This document shows, in pieces, positions 25,789-32,957 of a stretch of 49,445 bases of DNA (its first letter is position 1; the number at the start of each line of letters is the position of its first letter). Under the pieces are notes generated by a model. That model was not told the DNA's origin and made no database searches. It saw only the letters and a list, made by a program, of their open reading frames with translations. This stretch comes from a virus: the IMG/VR virus record IMGVR_UViG_3300021963_000190, positions 1 through 49,445 of that record; one strand, 5' to 3'. The position numbers and the translations under genes are program-made.

Positions 25789-26607
25789 TTACTCGGCAGG
25801 ATAAAAAAAGTCAACCCCAAACGGGATTCGGAGAGCCTCCTTCTCACCGGTGAATGGAGATTCATATTCAAACTTCAAATCCAAATCTGGAGTGATTTCT
25901 CCCATATATTTTCTTAAACCTTTGGAATCGCCTGCTAATAATCTATTACTAACGAAATTACTAATGTATCCAATATCTCTGTTACCATCTACTTCAACGA
26001 TAACTCTTCTATATCTTGCCGTAATTTCATTACTTTGTTTTAGATTTTTCTCAGCTGCTTCAATATCTTTTCCAATGGCAATCTCATCACCATGTGTAAG
26101 TAATTTAAATTTGATTGGAGTTTTTGAAATAGGTAAAATAAAATCATATTCATTTTTTCTATTTAATCTGCTCTCATCGATTTCTTTTATTTGTATCTTA
26201 GATAAATCAATTGTAACTTTAACCGGCTCATCTTCTTGCGGGTCATTTACAGTTATATCATATTCAGGTCCAAACGCTAATACTCTAGAAGATACCAATA
26301 ATGCATTCTTATCACCAATCAATAAATCATTTGGAGATACGCCTGGTTCTACTAAAATAGATTCCATTAGTTTATCAATGTGAATACCTTTTCTGATAAG
26401 ATTAGTTGAAGTAAGAATATCCTCTTCTTTAGCTGTCATTAATTTAATTGTAACTTCGCCTTTAGATAATGGATGGCTTTCTGGATATACCAATCCTTTT
26501 GATGGTAAACTAATAACCTCTGTTGGGAATGGGTAATTTCTTTGTTCATTCGATGAACCCACGCCTAACCCTCTTGTAACTTGTTGTTCTACGTTTTGTT
26601 GTTCCAT
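25789..26607 (-). CDS. Baseplate hub protein of the T4 gp26 family
   Basis: A 272-residue protein with the family layout: VISLPSKGLVYPESHPLSKG near the start, then IKLMTAKEEDILTSTNLIRK and LIGDKNALLVSSRVLAFGPE, and in the middle FILPISKTPIKFKLLTHGDE. The LPSKG-Y, LT--DE-IL and LP-S---KF-LLT-DE blocks match the T4 base plate family that includes gp26. Family members act in hub or central baseplate assembly. The C-terminus GVDFFYPAE spans a seven-T run just before the stop, at which a frameshift into the gp51-like frame is possible. Confidence 0.78.
   Translation of the reverse strand: MEQQNVEQQVTRGLGVGSSNEQRNYPFPTEVISLPSKGLVYPESHPLSKGEVTIKLMTAKEEDILTSTNLIRKGIHIDKLMESILVEPGVSPNDLLIGDKNALLVSSRVLAFGPEYDITVNDPQEDEPVKVTIDLSKIQIKEIDESRLNRKNEYDFILPISKTPIKFKLLTHGDEIAIGKDIEAAEKNLKQSNEITARYRRVIVEVDGNRDIGYISNFVSNRLLAGDSKGLRKYMGEITPDLDLKFEYESPFTGEKEALRIPFGVDFFYPAE
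25803..25809 (-). promoter_or_regulatory. Run of seven T: candidate programmed frameshift site
   Basis: In the gp26-like frame the codons are GAC TTT TTT TAT. Slippage of the second Phe tRNA by +1 (or by -2) keeps perfect pairing and enters the frame that reads ILPSNYAVTLHQKIFQMIYY. This would give a C-terminally extended fusion, as in the tail assembly chaperones of lambda and Mu. Confidence 0.4.
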
Positions 26608-26629
26608 AATAATAACTTAATGTTTTATA

Positions 26630-26638
26630 TATAAGTAT
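26630..26638 (-). promoter_or_regulatory. Variant late motif before the gp26-like gene
   Basis: ATACTTATA on the minus strand differs from ATATTTATA at one base and lies 22 bases before the ATG at 26607, inside a longer alternating TA stretch. Confidence 0.4.
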
Positions 26639-26651
26639 ATATAAAATAAAA

Positions 26652-26675
26652 AAGGAGAACATTTCTGCTCTCCTT
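26652..26675 (-). terminator. Intrinsic terminator after the zinc-ribbon gene
   Basis: A seven-pair stem AAGGAGA/TCTCCTT with a ten-base loop is followed on the minus strand by a T-rich tract (TTTTTTATTTTAT). The loop GCAGAAATGT is identical to that of the hairpin at 27621-27646. Confidence 0.75.
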
Positions 26676-26701: not shown

Positions 26702-27484
26702 TTAGAATTTAGTTCCGCAATGTGGGCAGAACTTATGTGTATCTTTCTTTCTTTTGGCACCACACTCACCACAATACAATACACCTAAATCTTCTTTATG
26801 GTATTTCTTTTGTGATGTTGGTAGAATTCTCCATGCTACATTGTGAAATGCATATGAATTAAACTTTCTATCCGATGATGTAAATTCTTGATTAGAGGTA
26901 TCACCCTTTTCAGTTGTACCAGTTTCAACTTTATTTGCATTTCGAATATTTGGACCTGCCAAAGTATTAGATGTTAAACTTGCATTATTGTAATATGCAG
27001 TATTAGTAATACCACTAATTCCCAATGTGTTTGTAGTGTAGGTTATATTATTTGTCCAATTTCCAATACTATTTGTAGTGATTGTACCATATCCACTACC
27101 ATATATTGGTCTATTTGAGAATGAGTGCTCTTCATTAAAGAATTGTATTTCTACATATCCATTATTATCAATAGCACCTACATTAACCGCTTCTTTACCT
27201 ACTTCATAGGTTCTGAATACAAATTTGTTATTTGAATCCAAGAAGCGTTCTAAAAACACTCTTTCACCTGGTCTTAATACAATACCACCACCTGATAAGT
27301 AATCCTTATCGATTTTGATTTTTGCTAATACGTGTTTTGGAGTTGGGTTGAATAATTCGATTTGGTATTCATCTCCATCGTTAAGATAGACTTGTCCTTC
27401 GAATTGTTTGATTCTTTGTTTACCTTTGGTGATAAACGCCTGCGGATTTGATGGACTTCCGCTTGTCCAAATTGATTGTTTCAT
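26702..27484 (-). CDS. Zinc-ribbon protein of unknown function (accessory gene)
   Basis: A 260-residue protein. The N-terminal half is a beta-rich domain (FEGQVYLNDGDEYQIELFNP, then GGGIVLRPGERVFLERFLD). The middle is a Asn/Thr/Gly-rich low-complexity stretch. The end is a zinc ribbon with two CxxC pairs in LYCGECGAKRKKDTHKFCPH and CGTKF. The N-terminal domain recalls proteins scattered in marine virus genomes, but no function is known to me. It stands alone between two terminators, with its own host-type promoter and a hairpin-rich leader, inside the tail gene cluster. That makes it an inserted accessory unit rather than a core tail gene. Confidence 0.68.
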   Translation of the reverse strand: MKQSIWTSGSPSNPQAFITKGKQRIKQFEGQVYLNDGDEYQIELFNPTPKHVLAKIKIDKDYLSGGGIVLRPGERVFLERFLDSNNKFVFRTYEVGKEAVNVGAIDNNGYVEIQFFNEEHSFSNRPIYGSGYGTITTNSIGNWTNNITYTTNTLGISGITNTAYYNNASLTSNTLAGPNIRNANKVETGTTEKGDTSNQEFTSSDRKFNSYAFHNVAWRILPTSQKKYHKEDLGVLYCGECGAKRKKDTHKFCPHCGTKF

Positions 27485-27620: not shown

Positions 27621-27646
27621 AAAGGAAAACATTTCTGCTTTCCTTT
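27621..27646 (-). terminator. Intrinsic terminator after the 69-residue gene
   Basis: An eight-pair stem AAAGGAAA/TTTCCTTT with the loop GCAGAAATGT is followed on the minus strand by TTTATTTTGC. The surrounding sequence is a near copy of that at 26643-26676. Confidence 0.7.
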
Positions 27647-27668: not shown

Positions 27669-27878
27669 CTAAAACTCAACCTCCTCCGCCATAAACATCT
27701 TACGACCTACCAACTCCCACTTTGCTTTTTCATACATCTCATCGGAAATTAACATCTTCTCAAAGAAGATATCCATATTTAACTCATGAGGGTCAATCCC
27801 TAAATGAAGAGCCCTACTCTCCACAAAATTGCAATACTCATAAACACTCATTCCTCTAACATCGATTAAATCACTCAT
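27669..27878 (-). CDS. Small acidic hypothetical protein, 69 residues
   Basis: Starts at the ATG at 27878: MSDLIDVRGMSVYEYCNFVE, ending KMFMAEEVEF. It is acidic and helical, with two cysteine-poor helices and no known motif. A TTG at 27887 could add three residues, but the ATG matches the start position in the duplicated leader. It is a one-gene unit with its own promoter (27902-27933) and terminator, a layout typical of phage moron genes that act on the host. Confidence 0.6.
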   Translation of the reverse strand: MSDLIDVRGMSVYEYCNFVESRALHLGIDPHELNMDIFFEKMLISDEMYEKAKWELVGRKMFMAEEVEF

Positions 27879-27901
27879 ATCTCTCAATTTTTATTACATA
27901 G

Positions 27902-27933
27902 TAAAGTTACGCAATCCAAAGCAAAAAGTCAAG
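27902..27933 (-). promoter_or_regulatory. Accessory-island promoter A (duplicated leader)
   Basis: CTTG (27930-27933) and TAACTTTA (27902-27909) are separated by 20 bases, a relaxed form of the host consensus. The sequence from 27875 to 27936 is a diverged copy of that at 28264-28325, including an identical CTATGTAATAAA downstream of the box and AGAGATATGA at the start codon. Confidence 0.6.
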
Positions 27934-27958
27934 CTTTTTCTTAATTATTTTTTAAAAT

Positions 27959-28174
27959 TTAAAGTTCATTGATTTCATCCAACTCGCCACCATAATAACA
28001 TACATTCAAACTATACTTAGGCAAATCTACATTGTAATAATCGTTGTTATAATTAGTTAAACATACATCTAACCAATTAACATCAATTTTATTTTCTTCA
28101 CACCACTTCTCAAACGTAACTGCATCGTTGTTTTCTGCAAACTTAATAATTTCGTTTTTAGTAATAGCTTTCAT
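27959..28174 (-). CDS. Small hypothetical protein, 71 residues
   Basis: MKAITKNEIIKFAENNDAVT is followed by FEKWCEENKIDVNWLDVCL and ends YYGGELDEINEL. It is acidic, with three cysteines and four asparagine-rich turns. No family recognised. It follows a 24-residue open frame under promoter B and precedes promoter A, so it is part of the accessory island between tail tube and zinc-ribbon genes. Confidence 0.6.
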   Translation of the reverse strand: MKAITKNEIIKFAENNDAVTFEKWCEENKIDVNWLDVCLTNYNNDYYNVDLPKYSLNVCYYGGELDEINEL

Positions 28175-28192
28175 TGTTTTATGTTTTAAAGT

Positions 28193-28267
28193 TTAATATC
28201 CTAACATTTTTAAAATTCGAAAACCAATAAAAATTAAATCGTTAAATTGATAAATTATTAATTTCAT
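28193..28267 (-). CDS. Possible 24-residue leader peptide
   Basis: The ATG at 28267 occupies exactly the position that the real start codon of the 69-residue gene has in the duplicated leader A. The frame reads MKLIIYQFNDLIFIGFRILK and MLGY, then TAA, a hydrophobic peptide. It may be a leader peptide, a tiny membrane peptide, or the remains of a gene lost after duplication. Confidence 0.35.
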   Translation of the reverse strand: MKLIIYQFNDLIFIGFRILKMLGY

Positions 28268-28290
28268 ATCTCTTAATCTTTATTACATAG

Positions 28291-28322
28291 TAAATGTAAT
28301 ACATTTTACATTAAAAGTCAAG
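28291..28322 (-). promoter_or_regulatory. Accessory-island promoter B (duplicated leader)
   Basis: CTTG (28319-28322) and TACATTTA (28291-28298) on the minus strand are separated by 20 bases. The flanks match promoter A closely, while the spacer differs, as expected if only promoter contacts and leader are conserved. Confidence 0.6.
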
Positions 28323-28373
28323 CATTTTTTAAAATATTTTTAAAATTTATAATCATTCTAAATAAGACATAAA

Positions 28374-28402
28374 AAAAGAGGGTAGAAATTCTACCCCCTT
28401 TT
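28374..28402 (-). terminator. Intrinsic terminator after the tail tube gene
   Basis: A GGGTAG/CTACCC core stem, extended by G-C and A-T pairs around one mismatch, is followed on the minus strand by seven T. It closes the sheath and tube operon before the accessory island. Confidence 0.8.
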
Positions 28403-28429: not shown

Positions 28430-28918
28430 TTAGTACTCAAGAATTGCGTAGTCATAAGTTAGAGTTAATTCTATTGATAATGGGTCGTTTGAAGCCCAAT
28501 CCAATTCACCAAAGTTTGCTGAAGAAATGAATGCTCCTTTTAGAGTCCATTGTTCAACTTTATCACCAACTGGTCCTAATAAGTAGAATGTTATATCTTT
28601 CTTATAGAAAGCTGCATATCCATCTCTACCTGTTAAAGATTCATGCGAACTTCTAATCCATTCCATAACTTGCTGTGCACCTGATGGTACAATTGGGTCA
28701 TATAATGAGATTGTGATATCATCCCAAGTTGATTTACCTTTAATTTTTCTTTTTACGTTAATGTGGTCTAGCTCAACTACTTCCGAAGTGAAAGTTGGTC
28801 TACTAGCCGTCTTTATCATATACGATTCTATACCGTTGATTTCCATTATAAATCTATTACCTAACTTTGGTTCAAAGTTGGTATAGAACATTTTATCGAA
28901 CTCTAATACTTCTGGCAT
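28430..28918 (-). CDS. Tail tube protein (T4 gp19 type)
   Basis: A 162-residue tube protein. The family pattern is clear: NRFIMEINGIESYMIKTASR, then PTFTSEVVELDHINVKRKIK and GKSTWDDITISLYDPIVPSG, and the C-terminal strand IELTLTYDYAILEY. Such proteins stack as hexameric rings to form the inner tube through which DNA passes. It follows the sheath gene and ends in a strong terminator. A late motif lies 27 bases upstream. Confidence 0.9.
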   Translation of the reverse strand: MPEVLEFDKMFYTNFEPKLGNRFIMEINGIESYMIKTASRPTFTSEVVELDHINVKRKIKGKSTWDDITISLYDPIVPSGAQQVMEWIRSSHESLTGRDGYAAFYKKDITFYLLGPVGDKVEQWTLKGAFISSANFGELDWASNDPLSIELTLTYDYAILEY

Positions 28919-28945
28919 TTTTTCTCTATTTAATTGTTTTCTTTA

Positions 28946-28954
28946 TATAAATAT
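28946..28954 (-). promoter_or_regulatory. Putative late promoter motif before the tail tube gene
   Basis: An exact ATATTTATA on the minus strand, 27 bases before the ATG at 28918, in the gap after the sheath stop. It would give the tube gene extra transcripts beyond those from the sheath promoter. Confidence 0.62.
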
Positions 28955-28966
28955 TTACTTTTTAAA

Positions 28967-31153
28967 TTATCCGTTAAAAGCGGCGCCAGTTGGTAAGATG
29001 TTGAAATCAATTTGAATGAATTCAGCTGTCTTAGTTGGTTGTAAATAGATAGCCCCTTTCATAATGTTTCTATCAATTACATCTGGTGTGTTATTAGTTT
29101 CATCCATTACAACACGGAATGCGTACAAACCTTGTCTTTGTTGGATTGATTCTAAATACGGATTAACGATATTTAAAAATCTATTTCTAGTCTCCGATGT
29201 GTTTTGTTCGAACACTAAGTAACGAGAAGTAGATGCAATATACTTTCTAACAGTCAATAATAATCTTCTTACGTTAATTCTATCTAATGCAGATGGTTTA
29301 TCTTGTAATGTCTTTTGTCCGAATACTACAATACCTTGTCCTGGAAATTGTACGATTGGATTTACTTTTGCTTCGTATAATGTATCTTTTTCAGATTGAG
29401 TTAATCTATTTAATACACCAACTGCTCCTACTAAACCACCTCTATTTAAACCGGCTGGTGCGAACCATTCTGCTGCTACTCTATCGTTTGCTGCAAATAC
29501 GCCTGGCAATAATACTGATGGCGGAACTGAAATTAATTTGTTTGTATTAACATCAACTGTCTTAACCCAAGGATAGTAAGTTGCTGCCATATTTGAATCA
29601 ATAGCGTCAGATTGAGTTGTAGCTTGTGAGATTGAATCACTAACTGCGTTCGTATCCATAATGTAAAAACAATCGTTTCTTTGCTCAACCATATCCAAAA
29701 CATCGGTTGTTACAGATGGGTGCAATCTTCTAATAACACCTGGAGTTACAATCATATTGATATCAAACTCATCTGCATTAGATAAAGCGGCTACATGCTT
29801 ACCATATGCTACTGAACCATTTGAGGTTGAAGTGGATAAATCAAAACCTTGTGAGTTACCTGCTACAATATCAGAACCTTTATAGATTGGAGTAGTTGGA
29901 GCCATACCATCGAATCCTTCTTGGAATGCTACAACAAATTGTGCAGATGTTGAACCTACTGATAGTGTACCACCATTTGCCGCATCTAATCCAAATACTA
30001 CGTTTGCACCATTTCCTGCGCTTGCCGGAATTGGTTTTAAATATATCTTATTATCTACATTTGAATCCAAATCAATTCCACCATATTGTGTTGCCGATGC
30101 TGTTACAAATGATACAGATGGAACGATTAAATCATAATCACCTACATTTACAGGCAATTGATATGCGGAGTGTCCGAATGGTACAGATTGTATTGGTGCT
30201 ACTTCATTTAAGTTAGCTATTCTAATATATTTTGAATTGTTAATCCAATCACCACTTTCAGTTACTTTGCCTTCAGAATTGATAGTTAATTTTCTATCAC
30301 CGATTACTCTACTAATAAAGTTTGGAGAATTAGGGTCTAAGTTTACATTACTAAATGTTTCTAATACATTCTTCTTCTTATTTGTATCATTGAAATCTCT
30401 TACAACCACAGTAAATGTACCATAATCAGTACCATTTACAGAACCGGCTGCTTTAATATTTGTAATACCAATTTTTACTTTAGTATTTGCCGCATTACCT
30501 GCTCCGATTGTTTCAAATTGGAATAATGGAGTTCTTTCGCCACTAATCAATTGAGATTGAATCATTGGAGTTAATGCTTCTTGTGCATCTAATGTAAAAT
30601 CTTGTGAATCTAATACAACTACACTTTGAGTTACATTAGATGCATTTATTGAAGATGCTATTGATGAATTAGCGAAATATCCATAAACATATCCTTGTGA
30701 AGTTCCTAATGGATTTTGTCCATATGTTCCTACTACATCTTTAAGTTCTACCACACTTTGTGAAATATTTGCATAAGTAGTAGAACCACTTAATCCACTA
30801 GCCGCAGAACCTGTTGAAAATATAAATCCAACAGATGAAGTTACTGAACCTGATGTAGCAATTAACATCAATGGTTTGGTTGCGGTATATCCGCCTATTC
30901 CACCTACTCTACAAATTGTAGCAGTTCCTGCTTCTCTTAAATATGATTGTACTGCTAAAGGAGTATAATATGTGTCATCAACTGAACCAAATAATGTTTC
31001 GAATTCCGCTTGAGAATTAACGATTGTTGGAACTAATGGTCCTTCTTTGAAAGGGCCAATGAATGCTGCACCTATTTCAGATACACCTTGTTGTAAAAAT
31101 GAAAGGTCGTTTTCTTTTGTAAATACGCCTGGTGATACTATTTTCTCTGCCAT
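28967..31153 (-). CDS. Tail sheath protein (T4 gp18 type)
   Basis: A 728-residue contractile sheath protein. The N-terminus (VSPGVFTKENDLSFLQQGVS, then AAFIGPFKEGPLVPTIVNS) is diagnostic for phage sheaths. The C-terminal domain has INVRRLLLTVRKYIASTSRY, then FEQNTSETRNRFLNIVNPYL and ending EFIQIDFNILPTGAAF, which forms the inner core around the tube. The middle is a variable, Ser/Thr-rich insertion region. It makes this a myovirus. Confidence 0.95.
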   Translation of the reverse strand: MAEKIVSPGVFTKENDLSFLQQGVSEIGAAFIGPFKEGPLVPTIVNSQAEFETLFGSVDDTYYTPLAVQSYLREAGTATICRVGGIGGYTATKPLMLIATSGSVTSSVGFIFSTGSAASGLSGSTTYANISQSVVELKDVVGTYGQNPLGTSQGYVYGYFANSSIASSINASNVTQSVVVLDSQDFTLDAQEALTPMIQSQLISGERTPLFQFETIGAGNAANTKVKIGITNIKAAGSVNGTDYGTFTVVVRDFNDTNKKKNVLETFSNVNLDPNSPNFISRVIGDRKLTINSEGKVTESGDWINNSKYIRIANLNEVAPIQSVPFGHSAYQLPVNVGDYDLIVPSVSFVTASATQYGGIDLDSNVDNKIYLKPIPASAGNGANVVFGLDAANGGTLSVGSTSAQFVVAFQEGFDGMAPTTPIYKGSDIVAGNSQGFDLSTSTSNGSVAYGKHVAALSNADEFDINMIVTPGVIRRLHPSVTTDVLDMVEQRNDCFYIMDTNAVSDSISQATTQSDAIDSNMAATYYPWVKTVDVNTNKLISVPPSVLLPGVFAANDRVAAEWFAPAGLNRGGLVGAVGVLNRLTQSEKDTLYEAKVNPIVQFPGQGIVVFGQKTLQDKPSALDRINVRRLLLTVRKYIASTSRYLVFEQNTSETRNRFLNIVNPYLESIQQRQGLYAFRVVMDETNNTPDVIDRNIMKGAIYLQPTKTAEFIQIDFNILPTGAAFNG

Positions 31154-31223: not shown

Positions 31224-32957
31224 TTATTTGTATGTTGGTGAGAAATAATCATATATTTTTGTTATATCTGTTGAACCCAATTGTGTATTGTAGAATAATA
31301 CCGGTCCCATTTGTCCGTTAAAATAGTAATTATTATCACCATATCCTCCACCAATTTGAATCAAAGCGGATGAAGTATAGGTTTTTGCACCATTTGATAT
31401 TGTACCTCTTGATGTAGTATCAGTATATCCAACATTTGTTCCATTCGTAGCCGCTGTGTATGAAATCATATACCAAGTATTCGTACTCAATGTAAATGTA
31501 TTACTACTATATTGTACAGATGTACCATCATGTATAAAGTATGTACCACTACCATTTGAATTTAAATATAAAGCCATTTCTCTTGTACTACCACTATTTT
31601 GTTTACCAAAAATTTGATAATATCCATTAGTCGGATGCGATGCAAATCTAACCCAAGCTACTACCGAATATGCAGATGTGTTAAATTGTGTATATCCACC
31701 ATTAATATTGGATGTACCATCTTTATACCAAAATTTATTAGTAGATAATGACCAATATTTTTCTTTTCTAGTTGCTCCTGCATTATATGTAGGATTTGCT
31801 CCTGTAATACCAACACCATTTGGTGCTCCTGCTGGTCTAACACCCGTTCCCCATCCTGTCAAATCTAACCAATCGGTACCATCAGTACCATTTGTTGATG
31901 ATGCTTTTGATGGGTCTAAGTACATTCTTAAACCTGCCGCCGGGATTGATGGTTGAGTTGTTGTTCCCTTATTATGTGAAATGTATCCGTTTGCTATATA
32001 AACGTCAGCTTGCTCTACGTTAATAGTTGCAATCTCAACATCTTCGGTTACCATTTCTATATTAGTTACTTCAATTTCTTGCGTTTCTCCTAAGAAATCA
32101 TCCCACTTAACAATCATATCACCAATGATGATATCTTCTACATTTTTAAAGTGATACTTTTCAATTTCAGAATCAAATACCCAAAGTGGGTGAGTTCCTG
32201 TAGCTTTGATTTCACCATCGTTTAGTGAATAGTATCCACTAGCGAAATTATAAACAACATCAGCTACAACAACAGTTTGTGCCGAACCCGATTGTGCTTC
32301 TAATTGATAGAATCTCCAATCAACTTGGTCTGATTCTGGGTCTTGGGTTTCATCAGGCAATCCTGCTGGCACCCATGCCTTAATTTCATCACCAACATTT
32401 AAATCTTCTACCGCAACTGATGAACCATCAGCTTTTTCTACCATTGTACCAAATACCAAACAAAAATCCGGTTGGTTGATTGTATTGTAAACATCTACTG
32501 CGTATAATGTTTTTGTAGATGTAGTATTATAGCCGGTTGCTGCCAAATTATATCCATCAGCATATTTCATTGATATTACAGAAGATGCTTCCGAATAGTT
32601 AGATGAAGCAATTGATGCGGGTGTAATTGGAAATGATGGAGATGCTCCTAATGTTGGAGAACCTACTGAAAAGTTTGCGTTATCAAATGTTACCGAATAG
32701 TTTGCAGCTACACTACCAACTTTTGTACCATGTAATGTACCGGCTGTTCCAAATGAGAACGTCGCTGCTTCCGATGTACTTTCTACTATATAAGTATAGG
32801 TTGGTAAGTTTGGAGTTACCGAATCAATTGCGAATGCAGTAAATGAACTATTAGTTGCTCCACCACTCAATCCTCCAATTGAAACTGCCTGAGTCGTTCT
32901 TGCTGAACCACTCACTGCTCTATATAAGTTACCTAACGATAAATTTGTTCTTGCCAT
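31224..32957 (-). CDS. Adhesin-like virion protein with Hint (intein-like) and LamG-like domains
   Basis: A 577-residue protein with three parts. Residues 1-160 are Ser/Thr-rich beta sequence like the fibre proteins around it. Residues 166-329 form a Hint domain: C166 starts CLVFGTMVEKADGSS, block B is TGTHPLWV (T253, H256), and the domain ends ADVYIANGYISHN (H328, N329), followed by KGTTTQ. The Cys, TxxH and terminal HN are the self-processing residues. The residue after HN is Lys, not Cys/Ser/Thr, so cleavage rather than clean splicing is expected. Residues 340-577 form a concanavalin/LamG-3-like lectin domain (SVVAWVRFAS, LIQIGGGYGDNNYYFNGQMG). It probably binds the host surface. Confidence 0.85.
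   Translation of the reverse strand: MARTNLSLGNLYRAVSGSARTTQAVSIGGLSGGATNSSFTAFAIDSVTPNLPTYTYIVESTSEAATFSFGTAGTLHGTKVGSVAANYSVTFDNANFSVGSPTLGASPSFPITPASIASSNYSEASSVISMKYADGYNLAATGYNTTSTKTLYAVDVYNTINQPDFCLVFGTMVEKADGSSVAVEDLNVGDEIKAWVPAGLPDETQDPESDQVDWRFYQLEAQSGSAQTVVVADVVYNFASGYYSLNDGEIKATGTHPLWVFDSEIEKYHFKNVEDIIIGDMIVKWDDFLGETQEIEVTNIEMVTEDVEIATINVEQADVYIANGYISHNKGTTTQPSIPAAGLRMYLDPSKASSTNGTDGTDWLDLTGWGTGVRPAGAPNGVGITGANPTYNAGATRKEKYWSLSTNKFWYKDGTSNINGGYTQFNTSAYSVVAWVRFASHPTNGYYQIFGKQNSGSTREMALYLNSNGSGTYFIHDGTSVQYSSNTFTLSTNTWYMISYTAATNGTNVGYTDTTSRGTISNGAKTYTSSALIQIGGGYGDNNYYFNGQMGPVLFYNTQLGSTDITKIYDYFSPTYK

Follow-up and report, generated by a model that had tools for sequence, protein, structure and literature searches.

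Why would a virus carry the same promoter and leader twice within a few hundred bases, each time in front of a different small gene? The question is raised by a stretch of 49,445 nucleotides, hereafter called the window, which comprises positions 1 to 49,445 of the IMG/VR virus record IMGVR_UViG_3300021963_000190. We consider it very likely that the two copies lie in a slot for accessory genes, flanked by the tail tube and baseplate hub genes of a T4-like myophage, and that the slot holds cassettes of promoter-leader, small gene or genes and hairpin that are recombined at these repeats.

A duplicated promoter-leader between tube and hub

The initial annotation held that two stretches of the window match in their promoter boxes, in the bases behind the boxes and around the ATG. 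Pairwise comparison bears this out: on the minus strand, positions 28325 to 28264 and 27936 to 27875 agree at 46 of 62 ungapped positions. Random pairs of 62-mers from the window agree at 17.5 positions on average (s.d. 3.7), and 44 or more matches were reached by 5 of 2 million sampled pairs. The 31-mer TTTACTATGTAATAAANATTNAGAGATATGA has two sites only in the window when three mismatches are allowed, and none in 100 shuffles. The repeat continues for about 30 bp further upstream, as AAATTTTAAAAA-AT-TT...AAAA-GCTTGAC. The 20-base spacer had been said to differ between the copies. Its length is indeed exactly 20 bases from TTG to TA in both, but the difference is partial: the first six bases (ACTTTT) are common to the two, so only about 14 of the 20 differ.

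This exact spacing between TTG and TAnnTTTA is the one expected for the primary sigma factor of Bacteroidota, whose consensus is TTTG/TAnnTTTG (PMC6847099). Judged by their match to that consensus, both copies are promoters of the Bacteroidota type (TTG-N20-TAnnTTTA), and behind each stands a conserved leader, CTATGTAATAA. To predict where transcription begins we used the start spacing of 4-5 nt measured in Flavobacterium johnsoniae (PMC6847099). The predicted first base is the G of GTAATAA or its immediate neighbour (28286 and 27897), and the distance to the ATG (28267 and 27878) is 19 nt in both copies. That these promoters are active, where they start and that they act early are all predictions from the consensus match. 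The leader itself is predicted to be unstructured (RNA fold, positive z), and we dropped the idea that it is a folded RNA element; an Rfam search gave a chance-level match only, elsewhere.

The one leader does stand before two different predicted reading frames, as first proposed: copy 1 precedes a micro-ORF and a 71-aa ORF, and copy 2 a 69-aa ORF. A P2-type promoter also precedes this last gene, family F0, at two other loci (L015 and L143). From tube to hub the order is hairpin 1, upstream block, leader 1, micro-ORF, F8, leader 2, F0, hairpin, F11, hairpin (Table 1).

Table 1. Features of the tube-hub slot and its neighbours in the window
Feature	Position	Strand	Evidence or remark
Tail sheath	28967-31153		PHROG match
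Tail tube, left neighbour of slot	28430-28918	-	PHROG tail tube, E 1.6e-33
Terminator hairpin 1 and T-tract, left boundary of insert	28369-28402	-	RNA fold -18.5 kcal/mol, z -5
Upstream block CTTATTTAGAATGATTATAAATTT, imperfect palindrome	28343-28366	-	21 nt before -33 box
Promoter-leader copy 1	28264-28325	-	TTG 28321-28319, N20, TACATTTA 28298-28291, leader CTATGTAATAA, predicted +1 28286; kept with other cargo in relatives
24-aa micro-ORF MKLIIYQFNDLIFIGFRILKMLGY	28193-28267	-	directly behind promoter-leader copy 1
Cargo ORF F8, 71 aa	27959-28174	-	follows micro-ORF
Promoter-leader copy 2	27875-27936	-	TTG 27932-27930, N20, TAACTTTA 27909-27902, leader, predicted +1 27897
Cargo ORF F0, 69 aa	27669-27878	-	behind promoter-leader copy 2
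Terminator hairpin closing F8-F0 cassette	27624-27643	-	RNA fold -14.6 kcal/mol, z -4
ORF F11, 260 aa, C-terminal zinc ribbon	26702-27484	-	third slot gene
Terminator hairpin, right boundary of slot	26654-26673	-	RNA fold -14.0 kcal/mol, z -5.7
Baseplate hub, right neighbour of slot	25789-26607	-	PHROG baseplate hub, E 4.6e-10

Three further observations concern the neighbourhood. AT-rich, TATATA-like motifs that could be late promoters precede both the tube (28919-28970) and the hub (26608-26653), and the motif on the hub side of the slot is intact. Another promoter-like site (27615-27485, minus strand), with TTG-N19-TATATTTA and a long leader, lies before the 260-aa gene; its ACCTTGTGGTTAAAC is also present in L014. 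At 31224-32957 (minus strand) a 577-aa fibre-like protein has an internal Hint/intein-like segment (CLVFGTMVEKADG ... NGYISHNKG), for which NCBIfam support is weak.

The same site in relatives is empty or variously occupied

A search of IMG/VR with the tube protein returned at least 590 relatives. The best 80, together with loci from other searches, give 84 distinct tube-hub junctions, among which 36 are empty with both flanks present and 47 are occupied; since the tube search was cut to its 80 best loci, this share is not an unbiased frequency. The empty junctions of the main clade measure 97-155 bp, with one hairpin and no leader. Occupied junctions range from over 200 to 1825 bp, have two or more hairpins, and present about 20 arrangements drawn from 18 small-ORF families; the genes are nearly always enclosed by two hairpins. 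Hairpins nearly identical to the one that bounds the slot on the right also occur before the hub in relatives, and at one locus (L014) an F11 homologue (68% identity) directly follows the tube hairpin. Tube and hub are directly adjacent in the isolated Flavobacterium phage immuto. By parsimony, occupied and empty states have changed at least 8 times on the tube tree and at least 11 times on the hub tree.

The core motif of the leader was found in more than 119 IMG/VR stretches. The leader thus occurs outside the window, and the genes behind it, even at this one site, are not always the same.

A promoter class with cassettes at other genomic sites

What kind of sequence is the leader when it stands elsewhere? 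A TTG lies 18-21 bases upstream (nearly always 20) in 104 of 113 distinct core-motif contexts. We sampled large contigs (at least 94 kb) because they carry the core motif. Nearly all hold 3-18 matches when up to three mismatches are allowed, mostly on one strand, and one (G031) holds a single match; the reversed control gave 0-1 per strand. The sampled clusters contain 89 TTG-N20-TAnnTTT sites; an ORF follows 57 of them, and the leader is present at 41 of these 57. Three relatives with an empty slot (238, 145 and 101 kb) have no leader-class motif.

These counts would suit a plain explanation, in which the leaders are alike merely as strong matches to the ordinary early promoter of the group and the genes are stable residents, with nothing swapped: the class has several copies in most of the sampled contigs where it occurs, and most small genes in early-like clusters stand behind one. 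Within a single genome (G014), however, the two slot promoters are of the TTGACTTTT type and the five other matches of the TTGGC type. We regard this explanation as improbable, and the joints described below contradict it further.

Two genomes carry arrays of many small genes, many of which have their own promoter-leader copy (L256-L257 in G027, L261 in G029); the spacers of each array have a 'dialect' particular to that genome.

The cargo travels too. Away from the tube, families F0, F2, F3, F5, F8, F9, F10 and F17 recur. L142 carries an F17-F10 cassette at a non-tube site, together with the promoter and a portion of the upstream block (76% DNA identity across 605 bp); the copy of the block that precedes this related cassette is degenerate. 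F0-F1 stands behind a leader away from the tube in L260, and a relative of F8 (68% identity) at a non-tube site in L198. In L106 and L173, a micro-ORF and a 60-aa gene follow a terminator with the same TTTTTTTATGTCT border, at other sites. L133 (112-1525; 10386-11600) combines an empty tube-hub slot with a TTGACTTTT cassette of micro-ORF and F2 about 10 kb away, which suggests a second slot. A conserved micro-protein of 19-24 aa, with the C-terminus G(F/L)R(I/V/L)LK(M/L)LGY, is found in seven contexts (window 28267-28193, minus strand; L106, L133, L144, L173, L225 and L237), and three different genes follow it across the seven.

Our scans of bacterial genome contigs found no promoter-leader, and an origin of the leader in the host chromosome is therefore unsupported. 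It is also absent from the nearest named records matched by the tube protein: Microcystis phage Mel-JY01, Flavobacterium phage immuto and LR756508.

Joints lie in the leader and in the hairpins

Two pairs of relatives display the ends of the insert. L041 (empty) and L042 (occupied) have almost identical flanks, and the insert ends within two hairpin T-tracts. In the other pair, L056 is empty and L020 occupied, and the insert that separates them has a joint at the base of the stem. Read from the alignments, the difference in each pair is an insertion or a loss whose ends lie in hairpins.

For the 5' joint, we aligned 30 main-clade leaders at a fixed position and compared the 328 pairs with different cargo. 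Identity is 0.78-1.00 from -76 to +7 and then collapses to 0.29-0.52. Where the first cargo differs, the upstream block has an identity of 0.90, the spacer 0.78 and the leader box 1.00, and successive stretches behind the box have 0.52, 0.40 and 0.29. Spacer identity is practically the same for pairs with different cargo (0.78) and pairs with the same cargo (0.79), which argues for common descent and not only for constraint on the boxes. In the closest pairs, for example L049/L052, L050/L177 and window/L026, identity is 96-100% as far as the leader box, and past it mostly falls to about 30-48%. An ordinary promoter in front of resident genes does not account for a non-consensus spacer and some 75 upstream bases that stay so similar while the cargo changes.

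Nor does it account for L242. Upstream, this locus is P1-like (0.96 to L013, and 0.63-0.70 to P2 copies); downstream it is P2-like (0.96 to L143 and 0.94 to the window, and at most 0.44 to P1 copies). On these identities, L242 is a promoter 1 x promoter 2 recombinant whose join lies in the leader box. The pattern is the one expected from recombination between two leaders with loss of the first gene. The initial annotation had read the duplicated leader as a sign of repeated capture of small genes behind a shared promoter, and the collapse of identity past the leader box, together with this chimera, supports that reading.

All slot relatives are metagenomic contigs, and some joins could be assembly errors. 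Against misassembly as a general cause, usual assembly k-mers are longer than the shared stretches of some 15 bases, and several of the arrangements are found in more than one sample. Taken across the contigs compared, the alignments show a slot that alternates between states, cargo that changes behind a constant promoter, joints that lie in repeats and a pool of cassettes shared between sites.

Hairpins, the upstream block and the cargo

Of the 35 leaders at slot sites, 31 have a terminator no more than 130 bp upstream, as do 18 of the 82 leaders elsewhere; in offset controls at the latter sites, 0-2 of about 75 had one. Since 64 of the 82 non-slot leaders have no detectable upstream hairpin, promoter and hairpin are not an obligate pair. 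The view of a shared leader needs refinement on two points: the leader is not unique to the slot, belonging instead to a promoter class, and there is a second repeated element, the terminator hairpin, at the opposite boundary of the cassette.

The upstream block is present in every main-clade insert of the leader type, at a constant 21-nt spacing, and in none of the empty junctions. Its palindrome, imperfect in the window, is perfect in some relatives. A reading of this palindrome as a Fur box was not adopted, as a literature search gave no support.

A precise slot, with a left border block conserved at constant spacing and similar borders elsewhere (L142, L106), could point to a mobile element with its own recombinase (a homing endonuclease, a transposon or an integron-like system) that targets the tube-hub junction. 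The cargo speaks against such an element. Apart from the 260-aa gene of the window, no cargo ORF of at least 30 aa exceeds 115 aa, and the cargo families scanned contain no recombinase or nuclease domain. Moreover, no target sequence is duplicated beyond the T-tract, and the joints vary between events. We rate a self-mobilizing insert as very improbable.

F0 is the commonest cargo, with 31 copies. It is predicted to form a three-helix bundle (model pLDDT 85); the model has no significant fold match, and the protein falls in no Pfam, PHROG or NCBIfam family. F8 has a PHROG match at chance level only (E 0.08), and F1 is weakly winged-helix-like.

A proposed mechanism and its likeness to known systems

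We propose that the unit of exchange in the tube-hub slot is a cassette in which a promoter-leader precedes at least one small gene and a terminator hairpin closes the unit, with 5' joints falling in the repeated leader box and 3' joints in the hairpin or its T-tract. Co-infecting phages would recombine at these short repeats, by homologous or illegitimate recombination, so that cassettes are inserted, swapped or deleted. The promoter would free the cargo from the late structural operon and probably allow early expression, and the terminator would keep cassette transcription out of the hub. The small proteins may act on the host or on its defences.

Arbiol (2010) and Comeau (2014) reportedly described the PeSLs of T4-like phages as 'mobile regulatory cassettes'. 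In a secondary description, a PeSL is a unit of promoter and stem-loop that recurs between the small accessory genes of these myophages and is considered to mediate modular shuffling by recombination (PMC4503421). As far as that description goes, the likeness is threefold: a promoter with a terminator stem-loop lies between accessory genes (hairpins at 31 of 35 slot leaders, with fold z of -4 to -5.7), the genome is that of a T4-like myovirus (PHROG matches to sheath, tube and baseplate hub, and synteny with immuto), and different genes are shuffled at one place (about 20 arrangements, with joints in leader and hairpin). Unlike the T4/E. coli type of early promoter in PeSLs, the -33 and -7 elements of the window are of Bacteroidota type and are followed by an extra leader box; we therefore call the arrangement PeSL-like and not a PeSL. 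Compared with that description, the slot also differs in lying inside the tail structural cluster and in having a hairpin and promoter that are separable.

Morons consist of small genes, equipped with a promoter and terminator of their own, that have entered between two genes which are neighbours in related phages; their base composition usually, though not obligatorily, differs from that of the genes around them (PMC4378225). The slot inserts likewise separate genes that adjoin in relatives (the 36 empty junctions and immuto), and they have their own promoter and terminator, as far as can be read from sequence. In contrast to morons, they show no clear difference in base composition (GC 0.352 in cargo, 0.346 in tube and 0.314 in hub), one promoter is common to different cargos and acts as the swap point, and several genes per insert are common. 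By analogy, then, the slot cassettes would work like PeSL cassettes and like morons.

They also resemble integron gene cassettes, in operation only, by having exchangeable small genes behind a constant promoter. The cargo families scanned contain no integrase, no attC-like sites were noted, and the joints, unlike those of integrons, lie in leader and terminator. A broader interpretation is possible, though we hold it tentatively and with some doubt: leader box and hairpins might serve as standing recombination joints of a recombinase-free platform, which would exchange single genes behind a constant promoter in the manner of an integron and draw on one cassette pool for several slots.

Host and significance

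The phages of this group are large and aquatic and probably infect Bacteroidota. Promoter type and the relationship to immuto (tube proteins 47% identical) suggest such hosts; the named phage that best matches the tube protein (60%), however, was recorded from Microcystis.

Most inferences on how tailed phages gain and lose small accessory genes draw on gene content only. In this case the joints themselves can be seen, because one slot in close relatives presents an empty state, many occupied states and a P1 x P2 recombinant, and the same cassettes recur elsewhere. In practice, TTG-N20-TAnnTTTACTATGTAATAA is a marker for exchangeable genes of unassigned function in Bacteroidota phages, and the genes found with it may include some for host takeover or counter-defence.
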